Below are positions 9,871 through 18,410 of a DNA stretch of 25,770 nt, piece by piece. The DNA is taken from positions 1 through 25,770 of IMG/VR virus record IMGVR_UViG_3300025127_000237. The stretch is one strand, 5' to 3'. Numbering within the stretch: the stretch's first letter is position 1; the number at the start of each line of letters is the position of its first letter. The translations under genes were made by a program, and so were the position numbers. Source of the stretch: a virus. The notes under the pieces were generated by a model, which was given only the letters and a program-made list of their open reading frames with translations, was not told the DNA's origin and did no database searches.

Positions 9871-10848
9871 TTAATTTACACTTTCTGCATTATTTTTTTC
9901 GTATAATAACCTCGCTTTTATTTTATCTGCTCTTGACTGATTTTTGTTTTTCATACCTTTAATTCTTTCAGCAAGATTTTTAGGATTATAAATAACTAGC
10001 CCTGTACTATTAGTTCTAATTATTTCTGCGTCAGTAATATTTAAACCAAGTTCAGTACAAAGTTCCAATGCCTCGTCTAAATATTTATAACCTTTTAGAC
10101 CAATTTTAATTTCTTTCATTTGGTCTAAAATAGATTTAATCCATTTGTGGTGTGCAATAACAAATTGACCTTTTGCCTGTTTCCACTCTTGCAACATCAT
10201 AAACTCTTGTTCAGTACAAGCAATAGACCTATCACGACAATAATTTCTACCAATTAAATCTAATTGATATTTTTCATTCCACTCTTTGCCATAACCTTTG
10301 TCGTCGTCGCCAAGATATTTATTATTGTTGTCAGTATATTTTGTTTTATGTGGGTTGTTATCTTTGCCCTCTTGTTCAATCAAAATATCAGGATTACAAT
10401 TTTCTTGTGCCTTTAGTTCATCACGAAACAAAGCATAGCCATATTCATTTTCTCTTGAATATGAAGAATTGTTTTCAGTATCTATTGAACCATTTAAACG
10501 AAAGTCAAAATGTTTTTCAATAGCTTTTTGTTCCATAATGGGATTGTTGTCGTAATCTCTACTTTCCACCTCGCCCATGTAATGAAAATGAAAGCAACTA
10601 TCTTTTGCGATAGTATCAACATTTTCAAACTTGTCTTGCAGATATTGTGCCTTTGCAACATCATCTAAAGTATAATGTCGTCTAACAATTTTTTCTGCAA
10701 CTTTCCACGCATTGTCGTTCAAGTCAATTTGTTGTCCTTTCAACTCATCATACTTTTGTTTTTCTTGCGTGTCCTCTTGTTCAAGATGTACTCGCATACG
10801 ATTTGCGATTTTATTTCTGTACTCTTGGTTTAGTCTTATTCTAGTCAT
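9871..10848 (-). CDS. Unrecognised 325-aa protein
   Basis: No family is recognised with confidence. The N-terminal segment (MTRIRLNQEYRNKIANRMR) resembles the opening of proteins placed among nucleotide-modification-associated phage families (Nmad5-like), but this is a weak memory match. The middle is hydrophilic and Asn-rich with several Cys and His residues (SCFHFHYMG near residue 90), and the C-terminal 100 residues are helical and basic. I chose ATG 10846-10848 because AGAGGT lies just before it. An in-frame ATG at 10876-10878 lies only 6 nt from the -10 element and would give a leaderless 335-aa form. It shares a divergent promoter region with the structured RNA. Confidence 0.7.
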   Translation of the reverse strand: MTRIRLNQEYRNKIANRMRVHLEQEDTQEKQKYDELKGQQIDLNDNAWKVAEKIVRRHYTLDDVAKAQYLQDKFENVDTIAKDSCFHFHYMGEVESRDYDNNPIMEQKAIEKHFDFRLNGSIDTENNSSYSRENEYGYALFRDELKAQENCNPDILIEQEGKDNNPHKTKYTDNNNKYLGDDDKGYGKEWNEKYQLDLIGRNYCRDRSIACTEQEFMMLQEWKQAKGQFVIAHHKWIKSILDQMKEIKIGLKGYKYLDEALELCTELGLNITDAEIIRTNSTGLVIYNPKNLAERIKGMKNKNQSRADKIKARLLYEKNNAESVN

Positions 10849-10884
10849 TTTACCTCTTTCTGTATTTATTTTTTGCATGATTTG

Positions 10885-10913
10885 TTTTTAACACTTGACA
10901 AAAGGATTGTCAA
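10885..10913 (-). promoter_or_regulatory. Leftward half of a divergent promoter
   Basis: TTGACA (10908-10913, minus), 17 bp, TAAAAA (10885-10890), directing the 325-aa gene. The two opposing -35 boxes form an inverted repeat, ACTTGACA and TGTCAAGT, separated by 7 bp (10893-10915). The leftward and rightward promoters interpenetrate, so polymerase cannot easily occupy both at once. Confidence 0.75.
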
Positions 10914-10923
10914 GTATTATATA
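10895..10923 (+). promoter_or_regulatory. Rightward promoter of the structured-RNA transcript
   Basis: TTGACA (10895-10900), 17 bp, TATATA (10918-10923), then GGATAT and an ATG at 10930. The octamer TATAGGAT occupies 10920-10927. Transcription should begin around 10930, about 60 nt before the first helix of the candidate RNA. The segment after the -10 (GGATATATGAAA) is identical to that at the GP88 promoter. Confidence 0.75.
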
Positions 10924-10929
10924 GGATAT

Positions 10930-10983
10930 ATGAAATTAGTTATGGCAACGATATCTATAATGGCAAAGCATGACATAAGCTAG
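10930..10983 (+). CDS. Possible 17-codon leader peptide
   Basis: An ATG 6 nt after the -10 opens a 17-codon frame (MKLVMATISIMAKHDIS) that stops at TAG 10981-10983, just before the first helix of the structured region. It would be a leaderless short peptide. The frame may be accidental, because the ATGAAA context is part of a sequence shared with the GP88 promoter. If translated, ribosome passage could influence folding of the RNA that follows. Confidence 0.25.
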   Translation: MKLVMATISIMAKHDIS

Positions 10984-10989
10984 TTTTGG

Positions 10990-11320
10990 GACAACTTCTG
11001 GTTGTGCTGTACGTCACACCGCAATATGCCGTCTTCGTGCAGTGAACAGCCAGAACTGATCCCTGAGCTGTGTAGCGTATCAAAAAAAGATGCTAAGTTA
11101 GGGTTTGTTATCAACTACACTAACCTATACAGCTCTGGGATCAGAACTAGGTAGGCGCCTGTTTCGACGGGCTATATTCTAGGTCGCGATTCCTGATGGG
11201 AATGGGTGAGTAGGGATGCATACTGGAAACCCCGCCTATTAGCCACTAGTACTGATCCCTGGTCCTATTAGTGCTGGCAAGACTGCAGAAGCGCCGGTGT
11301 GAAGAGGACCTGGGATCAGT
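10990..11320 (+). ncRNA. Candidate multi-domain structured RNA
   Basis: A stretch of about 330 nt with no convincing gene on either strand, behind a strong promoter and richer in G+C than its surroundings. Consecutive helices can be paired by eye. P1: TTCTG/CAGAA (10996-11000 with 11051-11055) and GCTGT/ACAGC (11006-11010 with 11046-11050). P2: 11056-11075 with 11125-11144, 19 pairs in 20 positions, closing a three-way junction with hairpins 11077-11093 and 11097-11124. P3: ACTAG/CTAGT (11146-11150 with 11246-11250) and GTAGGCG/CGCCTAT (11151-11157 with 11233-11239), with inner hairpins near 11158-11171 and 11189-11203. P4: 11251-11266 with 11305-11320, 15 pairs in 16 positions. The domains abut with almost no unpaired bases. 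I do not recognise a known RNA class. Confidence 0.7.
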
Positions 11321-11323
11321 CAA

Positions 11324-11365
11324 AGCGACAAGCCGCAAGCTTCAAGCGTCAAGCCTCAAGCTTGA
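11324..11365. repeat. Heptanucleotide repeat array A
   Basis: Six tandem 7-bp units of the form AGCNNCA: AGCGACA, AGCCGCA, AGCTTCA, AGCGTCA, AGCCTCA, AGCTTGA. The last two units contain GTCAAGC/GCTTGAC (11348-11354 with 11360-11366), a 7-bp hairpin just after the structured RNA. The final unit supplies the -35 box of the GP88 promoter. Confidence 0.9.
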
Positions 11366-11390
11366 CAAATAAAGATTATAGGATTATAAA
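11362..11390 (+). promoter_or_regulatory. Promoter of the GP88-family gene
   Basis: TTGACA (11362-11367), 17 bp, TATAAA (11385-11390), then six bases (GGATAT) and the ATG. It is close to perfect sigma-70 consensus. The octamer TATAGGAT lies in the spacer (11377-11384). The expected start of transcription is at or within a few bases of the start codon, so the message should be leaderless. Confidence 0.85.
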
Positions 11391-11396
11391 GGATAT

Positions 11397-11999
11397 ATGA
11401 AAACAGAAACAGCATTAAAGATTATAGGAGGCAGCCTGAGCAAGCCTTCAAAAATGCCAGGATGGTCGATAGGTTTACCTGCCAAAGAGTGCAAGACAGG
11501 CGCCAAGCTCCAGAAGGTCCCTGGCTCTGTCTGTTATGACTGTTACGCCATGAAGGGCTGCTACGTGTTCAAGGTTGTCCAGAATGCACAGTATCGAAGG
11601 CTGGCGGCGATTAAGTCACCGCAATGGGTCAACGCGATGGCGCACCTGATCAACAGCAAAAAGCCGGATGTATTTAGATGGCATGATAGCGGAGACGTTC
11701 AGGATCTGGATCATCTTAAAAAAATTTATGAAGTCTGCAGGTTGACACCTTCTAAGCGTCACTGGCTCCCGACTCGTGAAGCATGGATAAAGGATCACCT
11801 GTCAGATAAGCCAGACAATTTAGTCATACGATTTAGCGCGCCCATGGTTGACCAGCGGGCGCCTGCTTCGTGGCCTAACTCTTCGGAAGTGGTGAGCTCT
11901 GGGGCTAGCTGTCCAGCTGCAAAACAAAATAATGAATGCAGAGACTGCAGGGCCTGTTGGGACAGCTCAATTAAAACAGTTTCATATGGGAAGCATTGA
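11397..11999 (+). CDS. GP88-family Cys-rich phage protein
   Basis: The 200-aa product looks like the phage 'gene product 88' family (PF17338, known from actinophages), whose function is not established. The N-terminus has IGGSLSKPSKMPGWS, then C32 and a CYDCYAMKGCY block (C46, C49, C55). A C-terminal cluster has C172, C181, C184 and C187 followed by WD. Two Cys clusters suggest a bound metal or iron-sulphur centre, which is inference. It is visibly richer in G+C than the flanking genes and on the opposite strand, so it was probably acquired as a cassette. The ATG has no leader; the next gene starts one base after its stop. Heptanucleotide arrays flank it on both sides. Confidence 0.8.
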   Translation: MKTETALKIIGGSLSKPSKMPGWSIGLPAKECKTGAKLQKVPGSVCYDCYAMKGCYVFKVVQNAQYRRLAAIKSPQWVNAMAHLINSKKPDVFRWHDSGDVQDLDHLKKIYEVCRLTPSKRHWLPTREAWIKDHLSDKPDNLVIRFSAPMVDQRAPASWPNSSEVVSSGASCPAAKQNNECRDCRACWDSSIKTVSYGKH

Positions 12000-17345: not shown

Positions 17346-17514
17346 GTACCTTTGTTCCGTGATTCAAAACACTTTTTAATCCAGATGCTTTCATGTTCAT
17401 GTCAACACCATAAGATTTCCATGCTTGTTTCATTAAGTTTAACTCTAGCAATAAACTAGACCATTGTCCTTGCAATGCACCATTTACTTTTATTGTTATT
17501 ATTTTCTCTTTCAT
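17287..17514 (-). CDS. Hypothetical protein, 75 aa
   Basis: Begins MKEKIITIKVNGALQGQWSS, then a helix (LLLELNLMKQAWKSYG). This strand-then-helix pattern is compact and probably real, whereas the last 20 residues are basic and disordered and overlap the next gene. It starts one base after the upstream stop. Function is unknown. Confidence 0.7.
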   Translation of the reverse strand: MKEKIITIKVNGALQGQWSSLLLELNLMKQAWKSYGVDMNMKASGLKSVLNHGTKVHDGSNNTKRRTVSTNTRNR

Positions 17515-17515
17515 A

Positions 17516-17722
17516 TTACCACGGGTATCTTGTTAAACTAGAATGAGCATGGCTTTCATAAGTTGGTTGCACTACTACCTGCGGTACCATTGATGTAACT
17601 GGTTGTATTGGATACACACCCCATTTTTCTTGATAGTCAAAAGGACCTAAGATTTTAAGATCTAGTTCCTTCTCTTTTATATCGTTATATCTTTTTAACT
17701 CTTTTATTAATGTATTAAACAT
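17516..17722 (-). CDS. Hypothetical protein, 68 aa
   Basis: A charged N-terminal helix (LIKELKRYNDIKEKELDLKI) is followed by a Pro/Val/Gln-rich tail. GTGAGG lies 7 nt before the ATG. It is the first gene behind a strong promoter and heads the run of three small genes to 17136. No family is recognised. Confidence 0.7.
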   Translation of the reverse strand: MFNTLIKELKRYNDIKEKELDLKILGPFDYQEKWGVYPIQPVTSMVPQVVVQPTYESHAHSSLTRYPW

Positions 17723-17744
17723 TTTTTCCTCACTTTCTAAATAT

Positions 17745-17773
17745 AATATAGGATATCAAAGGATATCTGTCAA
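17745..17773 (-). promoter_or_regulatory. Promoter with GGATATC direct repeat in the spacer
   Basis: TTGACA (17768-17773, minus), 17 bp, TATATT (17745-17750). The spacer is GGATATC-AAA-GGATATC on the plus strand, a 10-bp-period direct repeat of a near-palindromic core, which suits a dimeric repressor on one face of the helix. TATAGGAT is at 17747-17754. The message would have about 15-20 nt of leader with a ribosome-binding site. Confidence 0.75.
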
Positions 17774-17777
17774 CCCT

Positions 17778-17924
17778 TTATTTTCCCTGACCCCGGTATT
17801 TTTTGAACATACGTCGCTTACTTTTGTTCATTTTGCACAAGCTAGGGTTGCGTCCAATCGAAGTTTTATGAAATACAGGTTCGTGTGCAACTTTTGCGTA
17901 TAAACCTTTAGCTTTCTTGGCCAT
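17778..17924 (-). CDS. Small very basic protein, 48 aa
   Basis: The frame gives MAKKAKGLYAKVAHEPVFHK and ends MNKSKRRMFKKYRGQGK. The Lys/Arg-rich C-terminus with KKYRGQG recurs, as I recall, in many marine phage small proteins, which supports a real gene despite the weak ribosome-binding site. It overlaps the zinc-ribbon gene upstream by 17 bases. Charge suggests nucleic acid binding; function is unknown. Confidence 0.7.
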   Translation of the reverse strand: MAKKAKGLYAKVAHEPVFHKTSIGRNPSLCKMNKSKRRMFKKYRGQGK

Positions 17925-18135
17925 CGAAATATTGATCTACTTTTGACTGTAAGGATTCTTTGTGTAAGTGTGGAATGTAACTTATGACACCATTTACATG
18001 TTGTTCTAAATCTGCACCACATGTTAAACATCTAAAAAATTGTTTTGTTAATCCTACCAACATTGTATATTCTTCGCAAGTAGGACACTTACCATTAACT
18101 ATTTCTGCTTGAAATCTGAAATTTTTTTCTGTCAT
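17908..18135 (-). CDS. Zinc-ribbon protein, 75 aa
   Basis: CPTCEEY and CLTCGAD, 16-17 residues apart, form a classic two-knuckle zinc ribbon, as in many small phage transcription or assembly factors. The C-terminal half (VISYIPHLHKESLQSKVDQY) is a short strand and helix. No target can be read from the sequence. It is one of three Cys-pair proteins encoded in this window. Confidence 0.75.
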   Translation of the reverse strand: MTEKNFRFQAEIVNGKCPTCEEYTMLVGLTKQFFRCLTCGADLEQHVNGVISYIPHLHKESLQSKVDQYFDGQES

Positions 18136-18197
18136 AAACTTTCTTATTCTTTATCACAATTTGACGGTAGCGTCTATCTCTTAAATGTTTTGCAACT

Positions 18198-18410
18198 TTA
18201 TTTGAGGATGAGTTTTTTAATCGATTTTGATCCATCAATATTATCTTCTAATTCAGCTTCAGATTTTATACATTTATAAGATACAGATTCGCTGTACTGT
18301 CTCTCCGCTTCACGTTTCCCGCGAAGGCACATCGCCATCGAGTCTTGAATACGAGCTTCTTTAATCTCTCCATTTACAAACATCAGTAGTGCTATTACAG
18401 TCTCTATCAT
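18198..18410 (-). CDS. Hypothetical exported or membrane-anchored protein, 70 aa
   Basis: Starts with a short hydrophobic segment (MIETVIALLMFVNGEI) followed by a charged part with two Cys residues (AMCLRGKREAERQYSESVS, then YKCIKSEAEL) that could pair in the periplasm. The ATG overlaps the stop of the 141-aa gene by four bases (ATGA), so the two are coupled. Similar proteins accompany the 141-aa type in marine phages as I recall them. Function is unknown. Confidence 0.75.
   Translation of the reverse strand: MIETVIALLMFVNGEIKEARIQDSMAMCLRGKREAERQYSESVSYKCIKSEAELEDNIDGSKSIKKLILK

Follow-up and report, generated by a model that had tools for sequence, protein, structure and literature searches.

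The window, that is, the whole stretch of 25,770 nucleotides of viral DNA analysed here, probably encodes an apparently non-coding modular RNA that has its own sigma-70-like promoter and self-assembles through kissing loops. The locus and its relatives have a modular and conserved structure, a fixed genomic place, a promoter-like start, covarying helices, one strand that folds and, at the tips of hairpins, palindromes that are replaced by other palindromes inside conserved flanks. This palindrome-to-palindrome replacement points to homotypic kissing loops.

The locus and its domains

By its gene layout, the host phage of the window is an HTVC027P-like Pelagibacter phage; HTVC027P infects SAR11. 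The window encodes an SU10-type portal protein, TerL, TerS, an exonuclease, an HNH endonuclease, and a DNA polymerase. The RNA locus fills a gap of 518 bp. Toward terL, the gap is bounded by a minus-strand gene of 335 aa (9871-10878), and toward terS by a plus-strand gene of the GP88 family. GC content was 0.50 in the module part of the gap vs 0.35 in the whole window. A conserved reading frame would have been another explanation for the sequence, as a previous sequence-only reading had pointed out; no long reading frame accounting for positions 10930-11320 was found. The features are listed below, where "type-A" designates the P2/P4-type module, which consists of CUGAUCCC, a U.U mismatch and then an inner stem.

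10894-10914, no strand assigned: palindrome CTTGACAAAAGGATTGTCAAG (CTTGACAA...TTGTCAAG), which shares bases with the RNA promoter's -35 box (sequence)
10895-10923, plus: 5' end of the locus, with a sigma-70-like promoter, TTGACA-17-TATATA (sequence)
10929-10987, plus: P0, variable A+T-rich leader (no BLAST relatives beyond the window's own contigs)
10988-11055, plus: P1 domain, with a GGGACAAC lead, a long stem and a small covarying inner hairpin (relatives, covariation, fold z -4.7)
11056-11144, plus: P2, type-A module (CUGAUCCC-U.U stem) closing a three-way junction (fold z -7.0, module family)
11146-11250, plus: P3 domain, closed by ACUAG/CUAGU at 11146-11150/11246-11250 (relatives; conserved core 11179-11238)
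11216-11221, plus: self-complementary hexamer AUGCAU of the P3 core (UUGCAA in most relatives)
11251-11320, plus: P4, type-A module (fold z -5.0, family covariation)
11266-11306, plus: P4 top, where UAUUAGUG (11266-11273) and GUGAAGAG (11299-11306) make up an invariant internal loop beneath the hairpin of the tip
11283-11288, plus: self-complementary hexamer CUGCAG of the P4 tip (in relatives CUCGAG, CUAUAG, CCAUGG, UCUAGA, GCUAGC and others)
11327-11361, plus: five tandem NNCAAGC heptads separating the RNA from the gp88 promoter (sequence)
11362-11390, plus: promoter-like TTGACA-17-TATAAA before gp88 (sequence)
11397-11999, plus: GP88-family neighbour gene (PF17338, E 2.3e-26)

The fold of the whole region had a z-score of -5.06, and none of 100 dinucleotide shuffles was equally stable. 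The z-scores listed for the P1 stem, P2 and P4 were obtained by folding the domains separately, while P3 reached only -0.7. The coordinates and pairings of the sequence-only reading stand: ACAAC at 10991-10995 with GTTGT at 11001-11005, CAGAA at 11051-11055, P2 (CTGATCCC...GGGATCAG) at 11056-11144, the two arms of P3, and P4. The stem that P2 and P4 have in common was also found, with its U.U mismatch at pair 9. The ACAAC/GTTGT hairpin with its loop pseudoknot is a competitor of the P1 stem, in which 10996-11005 pairs with 11046-11055 (TTCTGGTTGT/ACAGCCAGAA) and which is both predicted and compatible with covariation. ACAAC is invariant across all collected relatives, hence outside the reach of covariation.

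The GP88 protein has invariant cysteines at positions 32, 46, 49, 55, 114, 172, 181, 184, and 187, a hint that they may bind a metal or an iron-sulfur cluster. Its predicted structure was unusable (pLDDT 52).

Modules, helices and promoters in related phages

A protein search of IMG/VR with GP88 gave 80 loci, 58 of them with both flanking genes, and 57 of these 58 gaps held at least one type-A module. DNA pattern scans widened the set to 365 oriented IMG/VR loci, which contained 588 type-A modules (458 unique), all of them in the same gap or, at contig ends, on the expected side of one flanking gene. With such numbers, the pairings seen at 10930-11320 are more than chance. The tops of the modules were shuffled and very diverse between loci. 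The domains are interchangeable parts, and the stem common to P2 and P4 is the constant element of a module that recurs and is shuffled. Only this recurrence allows P2 to pair with P4, in which the sequence-only reading had seen a possible two-state switch. The switch was not supported: 124 of 243 complete gaps contained a single module, which has no partner, while 2, 3, 4, and 5 modules were found in 91, 24, 3, and 1 gaps, respectively. That reading was right about the RNA, its switch is not conserved, and it had missed both the interchangeable domains and the changing self-complementary tips.

The helices covaried strongly in the homologous phage contigs, as the check proposed at the outset required, which supports the earlier proposal of a large multi-domain RNA. 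In the inner stem of type-A modules, pairs 11-17 were standard in 97-100% of cases vs 46-95% after shuffling, with variants such as GGUC/GACC, GAUC/GAUC, GGAC/GUCC, and GGUU/AACC, among others. The covariation score of the P4 family was 0.900 (0.275 shuffled, 0.09-0.15 slid), and those of P1 and P3 were 0.721 and 0.566 (0.278 and 0.202, respectively, for the controls). In the P3 core, 9 of 16 pairs were changed on both sides and 98.6% of cells were paired. On the gp88-sense strand, the non-Watson-Crick cells comprised 272 G.U and 15 A.C. It is therefore the gp88-sense strand that folds, since the opposite strand would reverse this ratio.

The internal loop UAUUAGUG/GUGAAGAG was unchanged in 40 aligned sequences, and its outer helix was fully paired and covarying. 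The same loop recurs in different stems, in the window and in relatives, and has the look of a self-contained motif for tertiary contacts or protein binding. Another RNA domain, GAUUACAGG...GCAGAAGCUGUAAUUGAGA...UUGCGCGAC, was observed outside the window (in L007, L009, L034, L070, L094, L106, L160, L331, and L527); it forms a covarying H-type pseudoknot, with 8 helix types among 9 variants.

Another 21 module-bearing contigs had no detected neighbour gene, and 18 of them carried terL and/or terS of the same phage group. In L329 and L400, modules lay between terL and terS and no GP88 was found; L338 had a diverged GP88. The RNA is thus linked more closely to the interval between terL and terS than to GP88. 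When isolate phages were searched at the DNA level, the sole match was a short one to HTVC027P, in the repeat/promoter before gp88. HTVC027P (L081), where the locus corresponds to about 17350-18219 of MN698241 on the minus strand, carries a type-A module and a UAAG[GGAUCC]CCGA tip. Bacterial genomes (257 Gb) gave at least 116 scattered pattern matches, none of them in Pelagibacter among the matches listed; by our estimate, a pattern of 18 bases that allows 31 gap lengths would give about 230 by chance, and we therefore rejected these matches as bacterial relatives of the module.

The promoter layout of the window (TTGAC plus a TATA-like -10 box) opened 184 of the 243 complete gaps, compared with 3 after shuffling. 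A palindrome comparable to that at 10894-10914 was present in 165 of them; it is a possible operator of an early regulator and could serve the divergent gene too. Two or more NNCAAGC heptads (usually 4-6 copies) separated the RNA from gp88 in 229 gaps, and a promoter-like site stood ahead of gp88 in 89. The heptads also occur in other intergenic places, e.g., downstream of gp88 in L001 and in HTVC027P.

The RNA is usually encoded immediately ahead of GP88 and in its orientation, as would be a cis-acting leader of gp88, either riboswitch-like or a regulatory 5' UTR. Strand-specific RNA-seq of HTVC027P infection, in which annotated genes were counted, also put gp33 (GP88) and gp34, which adjoin the locus, in a temporal cluster of their own, with high expression at 6-9 h (PMC12753301). 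We nevertheless consider this explanation improbable: in the window and some relatives, gp88 is separated from the RNA by a promoter-like site and heptads, loci differ greatly in how many modules they have and in what order, and in some the modules lie between terL and terS where no GP88 was found. The main text of the transcriptome study mentions no intergenic or non-coding RNA and assigns a Pdase_C33_assoc domain to gp34 (PMC12753301). In our Pfam scan, gp34 (L081 2759-2899, 46 aa) matched no family at E <= 0.01.

Self-complementary tips

A palindromic hexamer was found in 92 of 144 top clusters, vs a mean of 64 and a maximum of 81 in shuffles; a palindromic tip is not universal among modules. 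In the P4 family, 22 of 28 tips contained a palindrome of at least 6 bases (10.4 in shuffles, with 0 of 2000 as high). Hexamers that had been swapped from one palindrome to another inside conserved flanks were seen in 26 sequence windows, with 23 different substitutions, whereas these windows yielded 1, 0, and 0 swaps under three mock rules of pairing. At sites with exact flanks, 5 of 5, 4 of 4, and 5 of 6 variants were palindromic, with up to 5 different palindromes per site and almost nothing else, as in UGCG[CUCGAG, GCUAGC, GCCGGC, GUGCAC, CCUAGG]CUAU.

When four bases differed and the 24 flanking bases were near-unchanged, both versions were palindromic in 13 cases and only one in 48 over the whole gap, compared with 0 and 71, respectively, in gp88 coding sequence. 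For two-base swaps, the figures were 14 and 23 in the module part vs 24 and 336 in gp88; such swaps keep a palindrome by chance 1 time in 15, and the coding sequence was at that level. These restricted tests were used instead of a whole-gap BLAST swap test, which was noisy (233 Watson-Crick swaps vs 38-137 for mock rules, with 332 in the coding control).

The swapped hexamers lay in a hairpin loop of at most 12 nt at 27 of 48 sites, compared with 85 of 384 other windows, and purine neighbours tended to flank them; in the constrained fold, 21 of the 48 were outside small hairpin loops. P1 and P2 of the window contain no hexamer that varies as a palindrome. We also considered kissing between different modules of one RNA and rejected it, as their complementarity was no greater than chance.

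Neighbouring bases at the centre of a palindromic loop are unable to pair with each other in the same molecule. Their covariation therefore points to pairing between two RNA copies. The same palindrome argument has been applied to OLE and GOLLD, and symmetric kissing loops were seen by cryo-EM (PMC12286853). We infer the following scheme. A separate RNA molecule would be transcribed in the direction of gp88 from a sigma-70-like promoter of its own; hairpin tips carrying a self-complementary hexamer would each pair with the identical tip on another copy; and the kissing loops would build a homo-oligomer, which may be a scaffold or a sequestering body in lytic infection. That the tips vary between phages while staying self-complementary suggests that the RNA copies recognise and bind their own kind.

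Two other explanations bear on the tips. The RNA could be a decoy or sponge, whose modules mimic a host RNA or bind a host or defence protein, with variable tops tracking host variation and self-pairing being absent or serving only to raise avidity. Shuffled, diverse modules would suit this function, and proteins could bind at the conserved stem and at the unvarying internal loop of P4 tops. We know of no partner, however, and a decoy gives no reason for replaced tip hexamers to remain self-complementary; we regard this explanation as rather unlikely. Perfect palindromes between divergent genes near the terminase genes could also act as duplex DNA, in a replication origin, a packaging site or sites for a dimeric DNA-binding protein. 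Yet a protein that binds such sites would keep to a single palindrome and not tolerate a variety of them, a promoter stands at the edge of the gap, and the 272:15 ratio means that one strand folds (with which strand-specific single-stranded DNA is also compatible). Such a DNA-level element is, in our opinion, most improbable.

Comparison with known RNAs and implications

In agreement with the initial impression that no known RNA class has this layout, Rfam 15 (including GOLLD, ROOL, OLE, and pRNA) gave no match at the gathering threshold for the window and 20 related loci, and lax thresholds did no better than chance. No report of the RNA locus was found in the open-access literature. ARAGORN detected no tRNA in the 25.8-kb window and no tmRNA either, which speaks against a tmRNA.

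The closest likeness is with GOLLD and ROOL, large structured phage or prophage RNAs that form homo-oligomers partly via symmetric kissing loops (PMC12286853). Palindrome covariation at adjacent loop bases was used there as evidence and is found here in the 26 windows mentioned above (0-1 with mock rules), the oligomer being deduced in the present case from sequence. In contrast to GOLLD and ROOL, which it matches neither in sequence nor by covariance model and which are often near tRNA islands, the RNA described here strings together 1-5 exchangeable hairpin modules that share a stem, was found without tRNA genes in the window, and bears many tip palindromes that differ among relatives. The retroviral dimer initiation site of HIV-1 (DIS) similarly has a six-base palindrome in a loop of about 8-10 nt, commonly with purine flanks, and pairs homotypically (PMC7357161), but the present RNA is a bacteriophage non-coding RNA with many palindromes on the tips of many unrelated domains. 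The hatchet ribozyme and osk 3' UTR dimers are also palindrome-driven RNA homodimers (PMC7357161), though unrelated to this RNA in sequence, structure, and context.

The phi29 prohead RNA (pRNA), another phage RNA that oligomerises by loop-loop pairing, raises the question of a packaging RNA working with terminase. The locus is near the terminase genes, it keeps its place between terL and terS in loci where no GP88 was found, and its self-association is what we propose. However, pRNA oligomerises by head-to-tail pairing of two distinct loops and its family was not matched here, the size and module number of the present RNA vary, and the terminase of these phages has a large and a small subunit of the ordinary kind, which are not known to need an RNA. 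None of the evidence obtained here points to a role in packaging, and we find it very unlikely.

Within the preferred explanation of a self-assembling RNA, the change of a hexamer amid fixed neighbours suggests selection for differing specificity among relatives. A more speculative extension, which we judge possible though doubtful, is that the tips are a lineage-private recognition code. Each lineage's RNA would then assemble only with itself, and selection would keep changing the hexamer to avoid the RNA of co-infecting relatives or to escape targeting, which would amount to an RNA kissing-loop system of self/non-self recognition.

These data describe a class of large structured RNAs that has no entry in Rfam and is carried by a widespread group of marine phages, a group that has a cultured representative, HTVC027P on HTCC1062, with existing strand-specific RNA-seq. 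If the tips pair as proposed, self-assembly of phage RNA would reach beyond GOLLD and ROOL, its specificity would evolve fast by a simple, readable rule, and the purpose of large phage RNAs would become directly testable.
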